Assembly (NCBI RefSeq): GCF_003149025.1
Contig: NZ_QGDV01000002.1
Coordinates: 186,001 to 250,000, forward strand
Source: Rathayibacter iranicus NCPPB 2253 = VKM Ac-1602
GTDB taxonomy: Bacteria > Actinomycetota > Actinomycetes > Actinomycetales > Microbacteriaceae
DNA length: 64,000 nucleotides
Direction: 5' to 3'
The notes below the pieces were generated by a model, which was not told the DNA's origin, did not search any database, and saw only the letters and a list, made by a program, of their open reading frames with translations. The position numbers were made by a program, and so were the translations under genes. Every line of letters begins with the position of its first letter. The first letter of the stretch is position 1. This document shows, one piece after another, positions 33,838 to 39,992 of this stretch.

Positions 33838-34141
33838 TCGTCATCTGCTTCCGATCGTCATCTACCTCCGATCGCTCGCCGAGAACCGTGATCTTCCTGT
33901 GTGACGCAGCCTGGTCGGGCGGTTCTCGGCCTGCAAGGGGCGCAATCGCACCCCACCGCACAGCTGCACTACTCAGACGTGCAATAATTGTCAATAGGAC
34001 CCGTTCGGGTCGAGGAGCACCAGGCCTACGTCGGGTGTGCAACGTCCTCGACTTGACATGGGTCCTCGTAATGCCCACCGACAGACGACGCTCTCCTGGC
34101 GTCGTCCGCCTCCGGGACGCAACGGATGGAGAGGTGCCGCC
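33838..34141 (+). promoter_or_regulatory. Upstream region of sigA
   Basis: 304 bp with no gene. It begins with a 17-bp imperfect direct repeat (ATCGTCATCTGCTTCCG / ATCGTCATCTACCTCCG, 33837-33870). TTGACA at 34053-34058 looks like a -35 box, but no clear -10 follows at 16-18 bp. GGAGAGG precedes the sigA start. Local base composition is less GC-rich around 33960-34000. Probably the sigA promoter and leader. Confidence 0.45.
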
Positions 34142-35455
34142 ATGGCCACCAGAGCTACCAAGACCGCAACGCTCGACGCCGTCGATGACGACGTGACGAC
34201 GACCACCAAGAAGCCCGCGACGCGCAAGCCCGCGGCAAAGAAGGCGGCGACGAAGACCACCGCTGCCAAAACCACCCGCTCGCGCGCGACCACGAAGGCC
34301 GCAGCTCCCGCCGACGGCGACGAGGAGCCGACCGAGGCGGTTGAGCCCGACGAGGTGGAGGTAGCTGAAGACGACGAGACCGAGGTCGTCGTCGAGGACA
34401 CCGAGACCAAGGACGACGCGGAGGTCGCGGATGCTCCCGTCGTCGCAGTCGCGGCGCCCGCGGAGCCGCTCCCGAGCGGCGCCCTCGTTCTCTCCTTCGG
34501 CGGCGAGGACGACGAGGTCCCGGTCTACTCGACCGCGATCACCGGCGCGACGGCCGACCCGGTCAAGGACTACCTCAAGCAGATCGGCAAGGTCGCGCTC
34601 TTGAACGCGGCCGAGGAGGTCGAACTCGCGATGCGCATCGAGGCAGGTCTCTTCGCCGAGGACAAGCTCGCAAACTCGTCCGATCTCAGTCCTGAACTCG
34701 TCCGCGAGCTGCGCTGGGTCGCGAAAGACGGCCAACGAGCGAAGAGCCACCTTCTCGGGGCAAACCTCCGACTCGTAGTCAGCCTGGCCAAGCGCTATAC
34801 CGGTCGTGGAATGCAGTTCCTCGATCTCATCCAGGAGGGCAACCTCGGCCTGATCCGTGCGGTCGAGAAGTTCGACTACACCAAGGGCTTCAAGTTCTCG
34901 ACCTACGCGACGTGGTGGATCCGCCAGGCCATCACCCGCGCGATGGCCGACCAAGCGCGCACCATTCGCATCCCGGTGCACATGGTAGAGGTCATCAACA
35001 AGCTGGCTCGCGTGCAGCGCCAGATGCTGCAAGACCTGGGCCGAGAGCCAACGCCTGAGGAACTTTCTCGCGAGCTCGACATGACCCCGGAGAAAGTCAT
35101 CGAGGTGCAGAAGTACGGCCGTGAGCCGATTTCGCTGCATACGCCTCTCGGCGAGGACGGCGACAGCGAGTTCGGTGACCTCATTGAGGACACCGAGGCG
35201 GTCGTGCCGGCCGATGCGGTGGGCTTCACCATGCTGCAGAAGCAGCTCGAGTCACTTCTCGATTCGCTTTCGGAGCGCGAAGCGGGCGTCATTCGTATGC
35301 GCTTTGGCCTCGGCGACGGCATGCCCAAGACGCTCGACCAGATTGGCGACACCTTCGGTGTCACGCGCGAGCGGATCCGCCAGATCGAATCCAAAACGAT
35401 GGCCAAGCTGCGTCACCCGTCCCGCTCGCAGTCGCTCCGCGACTACCTCGAGTAG
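34142..35455 (+). CDS. sigA: Primary RNA polymerase sigma factor (SigA/RpoD)
   Basis: Housekeeping sigma factor. The 437-residue protein has a Lys/Ala/Thr-rich then acidic N-terminal arm (1-130), region 1.2 ([20 protein letters not shown]), region 2 with [20 protein letters not shown] and [20 protein letters not shown] (promoter melting and -10 recognition), region 3 and region 4.2 with the helix-turn-helix [20 protein letters not shown]. The ATG at 34142 has GGAGAGG 8 nt upstream; the frame runs further upstream but with no good start. The murT-like gene begins 4 bp after the stop. Confidence 0.97.
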
Positions 35456-35459
35456 GCCG

Positions 35460-36722
35460 GTGATCCGCTACGCCCCGGCGATCCTCCTGGGAAGGGCCGC
35501 CCGATTCGCAGCGCGGGTGCGAAAGCCCGGTGGGGGATCCGCTGTTCCCGGGCTGGTGGTGAATCGCCTCGCACCGGGCTTTCTCCCCGCCGTGGTAACT
35601 GGCTTCCCGGAGGGACTCGTCGTTGTGACGGGATCCGCGGGCAAGTCCACGACAACGAAGATGCTCGTTGCCATCCTCCGCGCGCACGGCCTCCGGGTGT
35701 TCACCAACCCCTCGACTGCGAATATCGCACAGGGGCTCACCTCTGCCCTGCTCGAGCGAGCCGATCTCCGCGGCCGAATCGACGCGGACATCGCCGTCCT
35801 CGAGATGGACGAGGGGCACGGTGCACGGCTTGCGCCACGTCTACGCCCTCGCGTGGTACTGCTGACAAATGTGGTGGTTGATCAGATCGACCGTTTCTTT
35901 GACCCCGCGATGGTCGCGCGGATGCTCGCGGCGATCGCTGCCCGGGCGACCGGACGGGTGGTGCTGAACGCCGACGACCGACACGTCGCCGACATAGCAA
36001 GCGGCCTCTCCGATGACATCGTCCGCTGGTATGGCGTCTCCGATTCGGTGCGCGCTGGCTTCCCACGCGGTCTCGGTTATGCCACTGATGCCGAGGGAGG
36101 TGACCGCGCTACCACCGTCGTGGAGTCGACTCACGGCGACGCTGCCGAGATCAGGAGTGACGGTGACGCGCTCGCCGTGCGCCTCCCGGCTCGAGGCGTC
36201 CACTACGCCGTCGATGCCGCAGCGGCCGTCTCGACCGCCCGGGCGGTGCTCGACGCGCGCTTCGATCCCGCGACGACCGCCCACGCGCTCTCATCAATCG
36301 AGCCCGTCTTTGGCCGGGGCGAAGTCGTGACCGTTCGAGGCCAGGAGGTGGAGTTTGTCCTGGTGCAAAATCCGGCAAGCTACCGGCTCAACATTGCCGA
36401 GATTCCGGACGGCACCGAGCAGATCATGCTCGCGATCGGCTCCGACGTGCGCGACCCGTCGTACTTCTGGCCCGTCGACACCTCGGTTCTGCGACGGGTC
36501 CGCGTCATTTCGGGATCGAAGGCCTACGAGGCGGCACTGCACCTGCGCTACGACGGCGTTGCGGTCGACGCGGTGGACGAGGATCTCGGGCGAGCGCTCG
36601 AGAGTTTCCTCGCCCTGCCGACGCCGACTATCGGGCGAAAGACGATCGTCTTCTCAGCAGACTCGATGCGCCGCACACGTTCTCTTCTGCATCTCACTAC
36701 CAACCGCGAGGAGCCCGAATGA
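35460..36722 (+). CDS. murT: MurT-like Mur ligase without the zinc ribbon
   Basis: MurT with GatD amidates the alpha-carboxyl of D-Glu in lipid II. This 420-residue protein has the Mur ligase ATP loop VVTGSAGKSTTTKM (residues 55-68), FTNPSTANIAQGL, VLEMDEGHGARL and VLLTNVVVDQIDRFFD (where the family usually reads NLFRDQLDR), and the DUF1727 C-terminal domain (FVLVQNPASYRLNIAEI, then DVRDPSYFWPVD where WDVD is usual). The protein contains no cysteine, so the four-cysteine zinc ribbon of characterised MurT is missing. The GTG lies 4 bp after sigA. The stop overlaps gatD (ATGA). It is clearly MurT-like, but amidation is doubtful. Confidence 0.85.
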   Translation: MIRYAPAILLGRAARFAARVRKPGGGSAVPGLVVNRLAPGFLPAVVTGFPEGLVVVTGSAGKSTTTKMLVAILRAHGLRVFTNPSTANIAQGLTSALLERADLRGRIDADIAVLEMDEGHGARLAPRLRPRVVLLTNVVVDQIDRFFDPAMVARMLAAIAARATGRVVLNADDRHVADIASGLSDDIVRWYGVSDSVRAGFPRGLGYATDAEGGDRATTVVESTHGDAAEIRSDGDALAVRLPARGVHYAVDAAAAVSTARAVLDARFDPATTAHALSSIEPVFGRGEVVTVRGQEVEFVLVQNPASYRLNIAEIPDGTEQIMLAIGSDVRDPSYFWPVDTSVLRRVRVISGSKAYEAALHLRYDGVAVDAVDEDLGRALESFLALPTPTIGRKTIVFSADSMRRTRSLLHLTTNREEPE

Positions 36723-37432
36723 CCACGTTGCGCATCGCGGTCCTCGCCCCTGACATCCTCGACAGCAACGGCGATGCCGGGAACGCACGTGTTCTCGCCG
36801 CGCGCGCACGCTGGGCCGGAACGGATGCTAACGTCCTCCCGCTCGCGAGACCGGAGGACGCCGCTGTCCGACCCGATGTGTTGGTCGCGGGTACCGGTGC
36901 CGAAGCAGACCTTCCGGCCGTCCTGGAATTCCTACGGACGATTGCCTCGACCGTGCACGCATGGGTTGCGGAGGGCACCCAGGTTGTCGCTGTCGGAGCC
37001 GGTTGGGAGCTGATGGCGGAGTCCCTTGTGACGCCCTCAGGCGAGCTAAAGGGGATTGGCCTGTTCCCAGGACGCTCCGTGGCCGGAGACCGAGTGGCCG
37101 ACGACCTCGTCGTCGACGGGGCGGACGGCCTGCTCATTGGCTTCGAGAACCACGAGCGCCGAATGACTGGCATCTCTGCCGAACACGCGCTCGGCCGCGT
37201 CCTGTACGGGACCGGTGACGGAGCCGGCTACGAGGGTTACTTCGCGGGCGGTCTGCTCGGCACACACCTGCACGGGCCCGTTCTCGCGAAGAACCCCGCA
37301 CTGGCCGATGTCATCCTCCGCCGCGCCCTCGGCGACGCTTACTCGATCAGCGATGAGCGCATCCGCTCGGTGGATGACACGGCACGAGCCGCCCGCAATA
37401 TCATCGCGAAGCGGCTCGGTGTCGGTCGGTAG
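36719..37432 (+). CDS. gatD: GatD-like protein lacking the glutaminase cysteine
   Basis: GatD is the class-I glutaminase that feeds ammonia to MurT. The 237-residue fold is kept: a start such as LRIAVLAPDILDSNGDAGNA, VAGTGAEAD, FENHERRMTG and GLLGTHLHGPVLAKNPALAD with the conserved His185. At the nucleophile elbow, where the family reads VCGGYQLLG, this protein reads VGAGWELMA: Gly93 replaces the catalytic Cys. There is no cysteine anywhere in the protein. Glutamine hydrolysis by the usual mechanism is therefore not possible. The overlap with murT says that the two still act together. Confidence 0.85.
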   Translation: MTTLRIAVLAPDILDSNGDAGNARVLAARARWAGTDANVLPLARPEDAAVRPDVLVAGTGAEADLPAVLEFLRTIASTVHAWVAEGTQVVAVGAGWELMAESLVTPSGELKGIGLFPGRSVAGDRVADDLVVDGADGLLIGFENHERRMTGISAEHALGRVLYGTGDGAGYEGYFAGGLLGTHLHGPVLAKNPALADVILRRALGDAYSISDERIRSVDDTARAARNIIAKRLGVGR

Positions 37433-37484: not shown

Positions 37485-37718
37485 CTACGGGCGCTGTTCC
37501 TCGAAGAGCCGGGCGGATTCATCGTGCCAGCTCTGGGCGATGCCGGAAAGCTTCTCCTGGTACTTCTTGCCGTGGTGTGAGCAGAACAGCAGTTCGCCGT
37601 TGTTCACGACCACTCGGATGTACGCCTGCGCACCGCAGCTGTCGCAGCGGTCGGCGCCGGAGAGCTGGTGGGCACTGGCGAGTTCGTCCACGCCATTCTG
37701 GGTTGCTGTGGTCGACAT
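37485..37718 (-). CDS. DUF7455-like small zinc-finger protein
   Basis: A 77-residue protein starting at an ATG with GGAGG 7 nt upstream. It contains a CDSCGAQAYIRVVVNNGELL...CSHHGKKY arrangement, that is CxxC followed by CxxH, a probable zinc knuckle, then an amphipathic C-terminal helix (YQEKLSGIAQSWHDESARLF). Such proteins are widespread near sigA in actinobacteria; function unknown. Confidence 0.88.
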   Translation of the reverse strand: MSTTATQNGVDELASAHQLSGADRCDSCGAQAYIRVVVNNGELLFCSHHGKKYQEKLSGIAQSWHDESARLFEEQRP

Positions 37719-37910: not shown

Positions 37911-39992
37911 ATGGCCTCTACCGACTACAACGCCCGGCATCTCTCGGTCCTCGAAGGTCTCGAAGCGGTCCGCAAGCGGCCGGGGATGTACATCGGCTCG
38001 ACCGATTCGCGCGGGCTGATGCACTGTGTGTGGGAGGTGATCGATAACTCCGTCGATGAAGCCCTGGCGGGGCACGGCACCGAGATCAGCGTTCTGCTGC
38101 ACGCCGACGGGAGCGTCGAGGTCCGCGACCGAGCGCGCGGAATCCCCGTCGACATCGAACCCAAGACCGGACTCTCCGGGGTGGAGGTCGTCTTCACGAA
38201 GCTGCACGCGGGGGGGAAGTTTGGCTCCGGCTCGTACGCTGCGTCCGGCGGCCTGCACGGCGTCGGCGCCTCGGTCGTCAACGCGCTCTCGGAGCGGCTC
38301 GACGTCGAAGTCGACCGCAACGGCCGTACGTACCAGATGTCCTTCCACCGCGGCGAGCCGGGCCGCTTCGCCGACGCTGGCGAGCCCACTCCGGACGCGC
38401 CGTTCACGCCGTTCGAGAACGGCTCCGAACTCACCGTCATCGGAAAAGTCGCGAAGGGCGTGACAGGAACCCGCGTGCGTTATTGGGCCGACCGCCAAAT
38501 TTTCACGAAAGGCGCGTCATTCCAGACGGACGAGCTCGTTACTCGGGCGCGGCAGACAGCGTTTCTCGTCCCCGGTCTCACGATCGACATTGTCGATGAC
38601 CGGGCGGAGGAGCGCCGCGCGGAGATGTTCCGTTACGACGGTGGCATCTCGGAATTCGTCGAGTTCCTCGCCCCTGACGCGCCGGTGACCGACATCCTGC
38701 GCCTCACGGGCTCGGGTACCTTCACCGAGACGGTCCCCGTGCTCACCTCGGGCGGTGCGATGGTGCCGACTGAGGTCGAGCGCACCTGCGAGGTCGACAT
38801 CGCCCTGCGCTGGGGAACCGGCTACGAGACTGTCGTGCGCAGCTTCGTGAACATCATCTCGACACCCAAGGGAGGGACGCATCAGACCGGGTTCGAACAG
38901 GGCCTGCTCAAGTTGCTCCGCTCACAGGTCGAGGCGAACGCTCGGCGCCTCAAGGTCGGCTCGGACAAGCTGGAAAAGGATGACGTGCTCGCGGGGCTCA
39001 CCGCGGTGCTGACCGTGCGACTCCCTGAGCCGCAGTTCGAGGGCCAGACCAAAGAGATTCTCGGCACGCCGGCGGTGCGCGCGATCGTCGCGAGCACACT
39101 CGCCTCGACGCTGGGCGCGGTCTTCTCCTCGACCCGCCGAGAAGATAAGACGCAGACGTCGCAGCTGCTCGAGAAGGTCGTCGCCGAAATGAAGTCGCGC
39201 ATTTCGGCGCGCGCACACAAGGAGACGCAGCGCCGGAAGAATGCGCTGGAATCGTCGTCGCTGCCGGCGAAACTCGTGGATTGTCGTAGCAACGACGTGG
39301 AGAACAGCGAGCTTTTCATCGTCGAGGGCGATTCCGCTCTCGGCACCGCGAAGCTCGCCCGCAACAGCGAATACCAGGCGCTGCTGCCCATCCGCGGGAA
39401 GATCCTCAACACTCAAAAGGCCAGCATCGCCGACATGCTCTCGAACGCCGAGTGCGCGTCGATGATCCAGGTGATCGGCGCGGGCTCCGGCCGCTCGTTC
39501 GATCTTCCGGCGGCCCGATACGGGAAGATCATCCTGATGAGCGACGCCGACGTCGATGGCGCGCATATTCGCACCCTGCTGCTTACTCTGTTCTTTCGCT
39601 ACATGCGCCCGCTGGTCGAGGCGGGCCGAGTCTTCGCTGCCGTTCCGCCACTGCACAGGCTTGTCGTCATGAACGCCGGTAAGAAGCCGAACGAGACGAT
39701 CTACACATACTCCGAGAAGGAGCTGCAGAGCGTCCTCGCTGCGCTGGGTAAAGCGGGCCGGCGCTACCAGGACCCGATTCAGCGCTACAAAGGCCTGGGT
39801 GAGATGGACGCGGACCAGCTGGCGACGACCACGATGGACCGGGCCCGACGCACGCTCCGTCGAGTCCGCGTGGCCGATGCCGAAAATGCGGGACGGGTCT
39901 TCGAGCTGCTGATGGGTAACGACGTCGCCCCGCGCAAGGAGTTCATTGTGCGCGGTTCGGAGTCGCTCTCGCGGGATCGCATCGACGTCTGA
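37911..39992 (+). CDS. parE: DNA topoisomerase IV subunit B
   Basis: ATPase subunit of a type II topoisomerase. The 693-residue protein has the GHKL ATP site (EVIDNSVDEALAGHG, RGIPVDIEPKTGLSGVEV, GGLHGVGASVVNALS), the Toprim motifs FIVEGDSALGTAKLARN and ILMSDADVDGAHIRTLLLT, and the C-terminal IQRYKGLGEMDADQLATTTM. It pairs with the convergent parC 92 bp away rather than lying beside recF/dnaN, which together favour topoisomerase IV over gyrase, though the two are close in sequence. Confidence 0.9.
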   Translation: MASTDYNARHLSVLEGLEAVRKRPGMYIGSTDSRGLMHCVWEVIDNSVDEALAGHGTEISVLLHADGSVEVRDRARGIPVDIEPKTGLSGVEVVFTKLHAGGKFGSGSYAASGGLHGVGASVVNALSERLDVEVDRNGRTYQMSFHRGEPGRFADAGEPTPDAPFTPFENGSELTVIGKVAKGVTGTRVRYWADRQIFTKGASFQTDELVTRARQTAFLVPGLTIDIVDDRAEERRAEMFRYDGGISEFVEFLAPDAPVTDILRLTGSGTFTETVPVLTSGGAMVPTEVERTCEVDIALRWGTGYETVVRSFVNIISTPKGGTHQTGFEQGLLKLLRSQVEANARRLKVGSDKLEKDDVLAGLTAVLTVRLPEPQFEGQTKEILGTPAVRAIVASTLASTLGAVFSSTRREDKTQTSQLLEKVVAEMKSRISARAHKETQRRKNALESSSLPAKLVDCRSNDVENSELFIVEGDSALGTAKLARNSEYQALLPIRGKILNTQKASIADMLSNAECASMIQVIGAGSGRSFDLPAARYGKIILMSDADVDGAHIRTLLLTLFFRYMRPLVEAGRVFAAVPPLHRLVVMNAGKKPNETIYTYSEKELQSVLAALGKAGRRYQDPIQRYKGLGEMDADQLATTTMDRARRTLRRVRVADAENAGRVFELLMGNDVAPRKEFIVRGSESLSRDRIDV

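Follow-up and report, generated by a model that had tools for sequence, protein, structure and literature searches.

Two adjacent genes of Rathayibacter iranicus NCPPB 2253 = VKM Ac-1602, relatives of murT and gatD, probably encode an amino-acid ligase of group B peptidoglycan synthesis, which would join the bridge amino acid to the alpha-carboxyl of D-glutamate (D-Glu), with GatD persisting as a scaffold pseudoenzyme. The genes lie in the window analysed here, a stretch of 64,000 nucleotides (contig NZ_QGDV01000002.1, positions 186,001 to 250,000), and the variant pair to which they belong is a known kind of enzyme in altered form that is widespread in the family Microbacteriaceae, a group of plant and soil bacteria. 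Group B peptidoglycan, which is cross-linked through D-Glu, is typical of this family and is documented for individual genera. A preliminary description of this DNA had proposed that MurT still activates D-Glu, that the acceptor is an amino acid and that GatD is no longer a glutaminase; the core of that proposal survived the computational tests and appears partly supported. The observations that bear on it are a pattern of lost and retained residues, the distribution of the variant among genomes, the alternative genes found at one genomic site and a match between the MurT tree and bridge chemistry. The features of the pair are as follows.

35460..36722, + strand: variant MurT (subtype I), predicted ATP-dependent D-Glu alpha-carboxyl ligase; GTG start, 420 amino acids
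35631..35657, + strand: MurT P-loop GSAGKSTTT, in which Lys62 is kept and the Thr of GTNGKT is replaced by Ser
35877..35879, + strand: MurT Val140, at the column of Arg135 of Streptococcus pneumoniae MurT (gate facing GatD)
36719..37432, + strand: variant GatD, a glutaminase-fold putative pseudoenzyme and predicted scaffold subunit; 237 amino acids
36995..36997, + strand: GatD Gly93 codon (GGA), nucleophile elbow, at the position of the catalytic Cys
37271..37273, + strand: GatD His185 codon, the catalytic His being retained in the window

The elbow of the window GatD is VVAVGAGWELMA, and the earlier reading of it (VGAGWELMA), with Gly93 in the place of the nucleophile cysteine, was confirmed, Gly93 being aligned with the Cys94 column of Staphylococcus aureus GatD. 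Reading of the open reading frames (ORFs) likewise bore out the presence of His185, the complete lack of cysteine in both proteins and the described motifs of MurT, namely the P-loop GSAGKSTT, WPVD for WDVD and VDQIDR for RDQLDR. At the positions of the ammonia gate, the window has Asn at GatD Tyr30 and Val at MurT Arg135 (S. pneumoniae numbering), while Asp141, Gln142 and Arg145, which follow Val140 in the window MurT, are all retained. The triad aspartate of S. aureus MurT, D349, corresponds by alignment to the D of RDPSYFW, which is present in the window, and the WPVD change falls at the neighbouring gate residue D361.

The same pattern was found when 138 variant loci (124 distinct GatD, 14 genes having been seen twice) were compared with 42 pairs that keep the elbow cysteine (Cys-type pairs), 31 of which come from other families. 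The elbow Cys of GatD, the GatD Tyr that plugs the ammonia passage and the MurT gate residue Arg135 are each present in 42/42 Cys-type pairs and in 0/138 variant loci. The P-loop Thr, found in 42/42 Cys-type pairs, is kept in 5/138 variant loci (133 have Ser), and MurT Asp361 in 42/42 and 49/138, respectively; the catalytic His of GatD is present in 41/42 Cys-type pairs (the remaining one having a gap) and in 95/138 variant loci, having been lost in 43. On the other side, the P-loop Lys, Asn85, Asp112, Glu113, Asp136, Gln137 and Arg140 are retained in 138/138 variant loci, and the Asp equivalent to S. aureus D349 in 137/138, all of these being retained in Cys-type pairs too. In S. aureus, the GatD substitutions C94G and C94S abolish amidation (PMC6113224); in S. 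pneumoniae, the acceptor carboxylate and Mg are handled by Asn85, Asp112 and Glu113 of MurT, and the ammonia route is lined by GatD Tyr30 and MurT Arg135 (PMC6085368). Column by column, therefore, the residues indicate that the carboxylate-activating half of the enzyme is intact, and that the half which makes and passes ammonia is gone.

The pair was described earlier as intact, overlapping and not decaying, and this holds: the two ORFs share a 4 bp overlap, and the ratio of nonsynonymous to synonymous substitution rates (dN/dS), calculated against five relatives, lies at 0.09-0.11 in MurT and at 0.20-0.32 in GatD. These ratios, together with the absence of the elbow Cys from all variant loci, argue against both sequencing error and decay. 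The window MurT matches PF08245 (Mur_ligase_M) at 52.6 bits and PF08353 (MurT_C) at 25.8 bits against a cut-off of 25, and GatD matches PF07685 (GATase_3) at 44.8 bits against a cut-off of 27. Both stand far below the NCBIfam equivalogs, MurT scoring 90.2 and 77.3 bits against a cut-off of 800 and GatD 63 and 78.4 bits against cut-offs of 400/450. The AlphaFold2 model of the window GatD has a mean predicted local distance difference test score (pLDDT) of 96. GatD is single copy, since a second GatD-like protein was not found in the 3.38-Mb genome (E <= 0.01); beyond murT, only two weak partial MurT matches occur in it (L002, which is FolC by sequence, and L003, which is unread). Two genomes of the same genus (G041 and G156) share identical GatD cores with two Rathayibacter contigs (L195 and L194, respectively).

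One further argument of the preliminary description fared less well. The Cys4 zinc ribbon is indeed absent from the window MurT, and its loss was considered as a marker of new function. This argument falls, because the CxxC motifs are also missing in 10/10 Cys-type MurT of the family and in 17/20 from other families of the order; they are present in 7/11 Cys-type MurT from further out in the phylum.

The distribution of the variant was followed in several samples. Within a family set of 249 genomes, GatD is matched at E <= 1e-5 in 183, and 70 pairs were read, made up of the window, 29 other best-scoring loci and 40 picked loci (for the most part a single locus from each genus, with second copies added); the elbow Cys is present in ten and missing from 60, the window included. 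All ten Cys-type pairs show GGGGQD, RDQLDR/RDQMDR and GTNGKTT. Cys-type and variant pairs occur together in four genomes (G050, G060, G113 and G149). A quick MurT tree of 80 chosen rows places the variant subtypes I, II and III and a Rhodoluna kind on one side of a branch, and two genomes (G111 and G145) hold two variant pairs, of subtypes I and III. The subtype III pair (DQLHR; L034, L035 = L167, L168) lies away from sigA in these genomes. Outside the pooled count stand the truncated L223 and 12 further pairs (from small genomes, of ribbon type, or L091 and L093), 11 of which are without the Cys, the exception being L093 of G055.

A scan of named genomes, which used patterns derived from the variant and was limited to the top 80 among 389 confirmed places, yielded 79 loci with GatD, 78 of them without the Cys; the exception lies in a contig labelled Saccharibacteria (L271), which carries a Cys-type MurT pair of Microbacteriaceae kind. 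Only one MurT is present in 30/32 named genomes; Leifsonia aquatica has a second MurT that scores high with the Cys-type profile (unread), and Amnibacterium setariae has two MurT. When the order was sampled with the variant MurT profile, 107/297 genomes matched, 15 family genomes scoring at least 556 bits and 92 genomes of other families at most 409, and ten further family genomes were listed without a variant MurT match. In a phylum sample (346 genomes, E <= 1e-60), 19 matched, four of the family at 568 bits or more and 15 others at 406 or less. Variant-level MurT scores are thus confined to Microbacteriaceae in the genomes searched, both profile searches having scored no more than a few candidates in each genome, which means that absence of the variant elsewhere is not proven; the Cys is kept in 31/31 other-family loci read. 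The variant also occurs between sigA and parE in contigs titled Auritidibacter (L218, L221), Cellulomonadaceae (L273), Planococcus (L254) and Acidobacteria (L263), all of them metagenome-assembled except the Planococcus record, and these contigs, like the one labelled Saccharibacteria, are probably mislabelled or misbinned.

The genomic position of the variant is recurrent. In the window, the pair is flanked by the following genes.

34037..35455, + strand: sigA-type sigma-70 factor ORF, the upstream anchor (Sigma70 regions 1.2, 2, 3 and 4)
37485..37718, - strand: DUF7455 small Cys-containing protein between the pair and parE (PF24254, 80.5 bits)
37911..39992, + strand: gyrase-B/ParE-type topoisomerase subunit (called parE), the downstream anchor (DNA_gyraseB and Toprim domains)

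In the named set, sigA lies upstream in 77/79 variant loci, and the remaining two start where the contig does and are followed by parE or DUF7455; the DUF7455 protein was matched in 46/80 named loci. By contrast, none of the four family Cys-type pairs with recognised surroundings is at sigA-parE, and none of nine other-family Cys-type loci whose surroundings were read adjoins sigA or parE. Other genes take this place elsewhere. Among 20 loci read between sigA and parE, most of them in genomes that lack MurT, an F420-ligase-like protein (PF01996) is present in 15, a sugar-transfer-type ATP-grasp protein (PF14397) in 13, an alanine-racemase-like protein in ten and EctB in two. Such MurT-less loci with F420-ligase-like, ATP-grasp and racemase-like genes include L111:2119-3601, L109 and L134-L153, and an EctB-type diaminobutyrate transaminase was seen in or beside the interval at L130:2192-3514, L151, L153 and L256. 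With 34.9 bits, the F420-ligase-like protein at this site falls well short of the cut-off for CofE (180.65). Strong matches to it occur in 38/249 family genomes, all 38 among the 66 without GatD, and in none of the 19 genomes that lack GatD and bear MurT; the disjoint sets of 183 genomes with GatD, 19 with MurT and 38 with the F420-ligase-like protein make up 240/249. Weak F420-ligase-like matches co-occur with GatD in three genomes (G049, G112 and G134).

A MurT of ribbon type, with a Cys4 ribbon and the motif TNLTRDSIKRN, is also present at sigA-parE (L094, L096, L099, L101, L103, L170, L171 and L184). Its GatD, as read in three cases, has a THNA elbow and Ile for His, with neither Cys nor His, and this sequence pattern indicates that the ribbon-type pair is a second loss of glutaminase at the same site. 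In streamlined genomes (1.4-1.7 Mb), a GatD of about 200 amino acids (stop-to-stop ORF 198-224) adjoins MurT and has had the segment after the elbow deleted (L077, L078, L080, L082, L085 and L086). Since these lineages drop that segment and keep the remainder, GatD would be a scaffold rather than an acceptor-binding subunit, and the latter role, which had been suggested for it earlier, is disfavoured. We regard it as an evenly balanced question whether, in Microbacteriaceae, the enzyme that determines the wall cross-bridge is exchanged at the sigA-parE interval, which would make this interval a swap site; each enzyme would attach its own L- or D-diamino acid (or another residue) to the alpha-carboxyl of D-Glu. 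On such a scheme, the variant MurT/GatD subtypes, the ribbon-type MurT with its pseudo-GatD and the F420-ligase-like enzyme would replace one another, and the genes for racemases and diaminobutyrate synthesis would travel along.

The chemistry of the bridge has been described for several genera. In Clavibacter michiganensis, D-2,4-diaminobutyrate (D-Dab) joins D-Glu to D-Ala (PMC9603630), and the sole MurT/GatD pair of this species is without both the Cys and the His. Agreia and Frondihabitans have D-ornithine (D-Orn) and Subtercola has Dab (PMC5945732); Frigoribacterium has D-lysine (D-Lys), Cryobacterium Dab, and Salinibacterium Lys and Orn (PMC7033078, Table 3). D- and L-Dab are reported for Herbiconiux (PMC10011130), Dab for an Agromyces and a Rathayibacter (PMC11294650), and the wall of Agromyces aureus is written D-Glu-L-Dab (PMC5217419). 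When Dab is set against Orn/Lys as a label, a single change is needed on the MurT tree and six on the parE tree. The Dab branch of the MurT tree has a support of 90/84, and one change suffices in 88% of bootstrap trees. Agreia, for example, groups with Subtercola and Herbiconiux on the parE tree (98/94), and with Curtobacterium, Frondihabitans, Frigoribacterium, Salinibacterium and Microbacterium on the MurT tree (100/99). The MurT subtypes therefore sort by bridge diamino acid better than the parE tree does.

A single alanine-racemase C-domain is present in 21/24 genomes of subtype I, and two to four are present in 26/27 genomes of subtype II; it is found at least twice in 7/10 genomes of F420-ligase type, and three ribbon-type genomes and three with no candidate at the site have one each. 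In the named set, 25/42 loci of subtype II have a racemase gene within the sigA-parE interval, as against 0/28 of subtype I and 0/7 of the Rhodoluna kind. Tandem alanine-racemase-like ORFs are frequent in the interval (L232-L235, L237, L248, L249, L267-L269, L272 and L273). The racemase pattern, taken with the D-Glu-L-Dab of A. aureus and the D-Dab of C. michiganensis, suggests, as a weaker extension, that the amino acid added is of the L form in subtype I and of the D form in subtype II. EctB was also considered as a marker of a Dab wall and proved uninformative, as it is over cut-off in only 11/33 genomes (two more being weak) and is missing from several Dab genera.

The reaction can be envisaged as follows. 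MurT would bind ATP and the stem peptide as an ordinary MurT does, and would phosphorylate the alpha-carboxyl of D-Glu (position 2), with lipid I or lipid II as the probable substrate. Instead of ammonia, a free amino acid would then attack the acyl phosphate through an amino group, and the interpeptide bridge would begin with this amino acid. GatD, its glutaminase lost, would stay as a scaffold for the C-terminal domain and the 135-143 loop of MurT. The subtype would set the substrate, such that subtype I (that of the window, found in Rathayibacter, Agromyces, Cryobacterium and Plantibacter) would add Dab, perhaps the L form, and subtype II a D-diamino acid (D-Dab, D-Orn or D-Lys) made with an extra racemase.

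Such a pair stands closest to the MurT/GatD lipid II isoglutaminyl synthase of S. aureus, S. pneumoniae and Mycobacterium tuberculosis, with which it shares adjacent genes, a Mur-ligase middle domain with MurT_C, a partner of GATase_3 fold and the carboxylate- and Mg-binding residues; it differs in having no catalytic Cys, Tyr plug or Arg135 gate, in its altered P-loop and in its place at sigA-parE, where 0/13 Cys-type pairs with readable surroundings are found. Like MurC/D/E/F, it would combine ATP-dependent carboxylate activation with amino-acid addition; unlike them, it is closer to MurT by sequence and has a GatD-like partner gene. Archaeal MurT-like proteins are also MurT relatives without a working glutaminase partner, but they have no GatD gene at all and belong to archaeal pseudomurein (PMC11915815). 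The F420-0:gamma-glutamyl ligase (CofE) family, a member of which lies at sigA-parE in MurT-less genera, is likewise one of carboxylate-amine ligases, but is unrelated to MurT/GatD. A literature search, with most subscription journals outside its coverage, returned no MurT paper for Microbacteriaceae, Microbacterium or Clavibacter.

Several observations weigh against an amino-acid ligase of group B walls. It had been anticipated that loss of the cysteine would follow wall type; the Cys is lost in 138/138 variant loci, but the rule that group B means no cysteine is not established for the family as a whole. Five family genomes (G014, G021, G064, G183 and G230) have a Cys-type pair and no other GatD or MurT, G055 likewise holds a Cys-type GatD, and group B species with a Cys-type pair alone may exist among these genomes; the named scan cannot give the frequency of Cys-type pairs in named species, because its patterns were derived from the variant and it covers the best 80 of 389 places. 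Neither GatD nor MurT is present in 47/249 genomes, and nine (G017, G045, G047, G057, G108, G110, G159, G202 and G240) have no GatD, MurT or F420-ligase-like gene, so that another bridge enzyme must exist. The variant thus fits the genera with documented walls and leaves the Cys-type-only and MurT-less lineages unexplained. For seven of the 16 genera in the tree comparison (Plantibacter, Leifsonia, Pseudoclavibacter, Curtobacterium, Mycetocola, Okibacterium and Microcella), the bridge labels come from general background and not from the papers cited here. The parE tree is weakly resolved, and its well-supported branches force only two changes. D-Dab is present in Rhodoluna (PMC4156110), which neighbours subtype I, and Cryobacterium inferilacus has ornithine besides Dab (PMC12113805). 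Two racemases occur in three genomes of subtype I, and a single one in Arenivirga, which is of subtype II. The associations of bridge label and racemase with MurT are not phylogenetically independent; for racemases, kinship leaves a single independent pair on supported branches, so that this association cannot reach significance, and Fisher values ignore kinship. Finally, EctB was not found in the genome of the window and in 19 more of the 33 genomes.

These observations have to be set beside other explanations of the pair. That it is still a D-Glu amidase, which uses free ammonia with GatD as a structural partner only, appears unlikely. It is in keeping with the retained ligase residues and with the S. 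aureus enzyme, which uses ammonia at pH 8.5 and still needs GatD (PMC6085368), but the Tyr plug and Arg135 gate are gone in 138/138 loci, the MurT subtype follows the bridge amino acid, and in C. michiganensis the alpha-carboxyl of D-Glu is occupied by the D-Dab bridge (PMC9603630), which leaves little to amidate. Quite unlikely, too, is ligation of an amino acid elsewhere, either to another wall carboxyl (e.g., the one that is free on the bridge residue) or to another envelope polymer. Mur-domain ligases do serve several polymers (PMC11915815), and the coexistence of subtypes I and III in G111 and G145 would suit such a division; against this, the residues for the D-Glu carboxylate and Mg of S. 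pneumoniae MurT are unchanged in the variant (PMC6085368), and bridge chemistry tracks the MurT tree.

A decaying or regulatory copy of MurT-GatD without a ligase role might be suspected from the faster evolution of GatD than of MurT and from its shortening in streamlined genomes, but dN/dS of 0.09-0.32, a recurrent locus, a single MurT in 30/32 named genomes and invariant ligase residues make such a relic very improbable. A second, unlinked glutaminase that feeds MurT and leaves amidation unchanged would be compatible with the sequence alone, but is scarcely credible given that the genome of the window has no second GatD-like protein at E <= 0.01 and that the gate residue on the MurT side has changed too. 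The amino-acid ligase, with GatD as its scaffold, thus remains the probable role of the pair.

If the sigA-parE interval is a swap site, the chemotaxonomic peptidoglycan types that have been used for decades would be readable directly from the locus. If the pair is the ligase proposed here, the missing bond-forming enzyme of group B peptidoglycan would be named, and it would represent a rare case of an amidotransferase that became an amino-acid ligase with its pseudoenzyme partner retained. Peptidoglycan type would then be predictable from sequence, and a narrow wall target would be offered in a group B family that includes crop pathogens.

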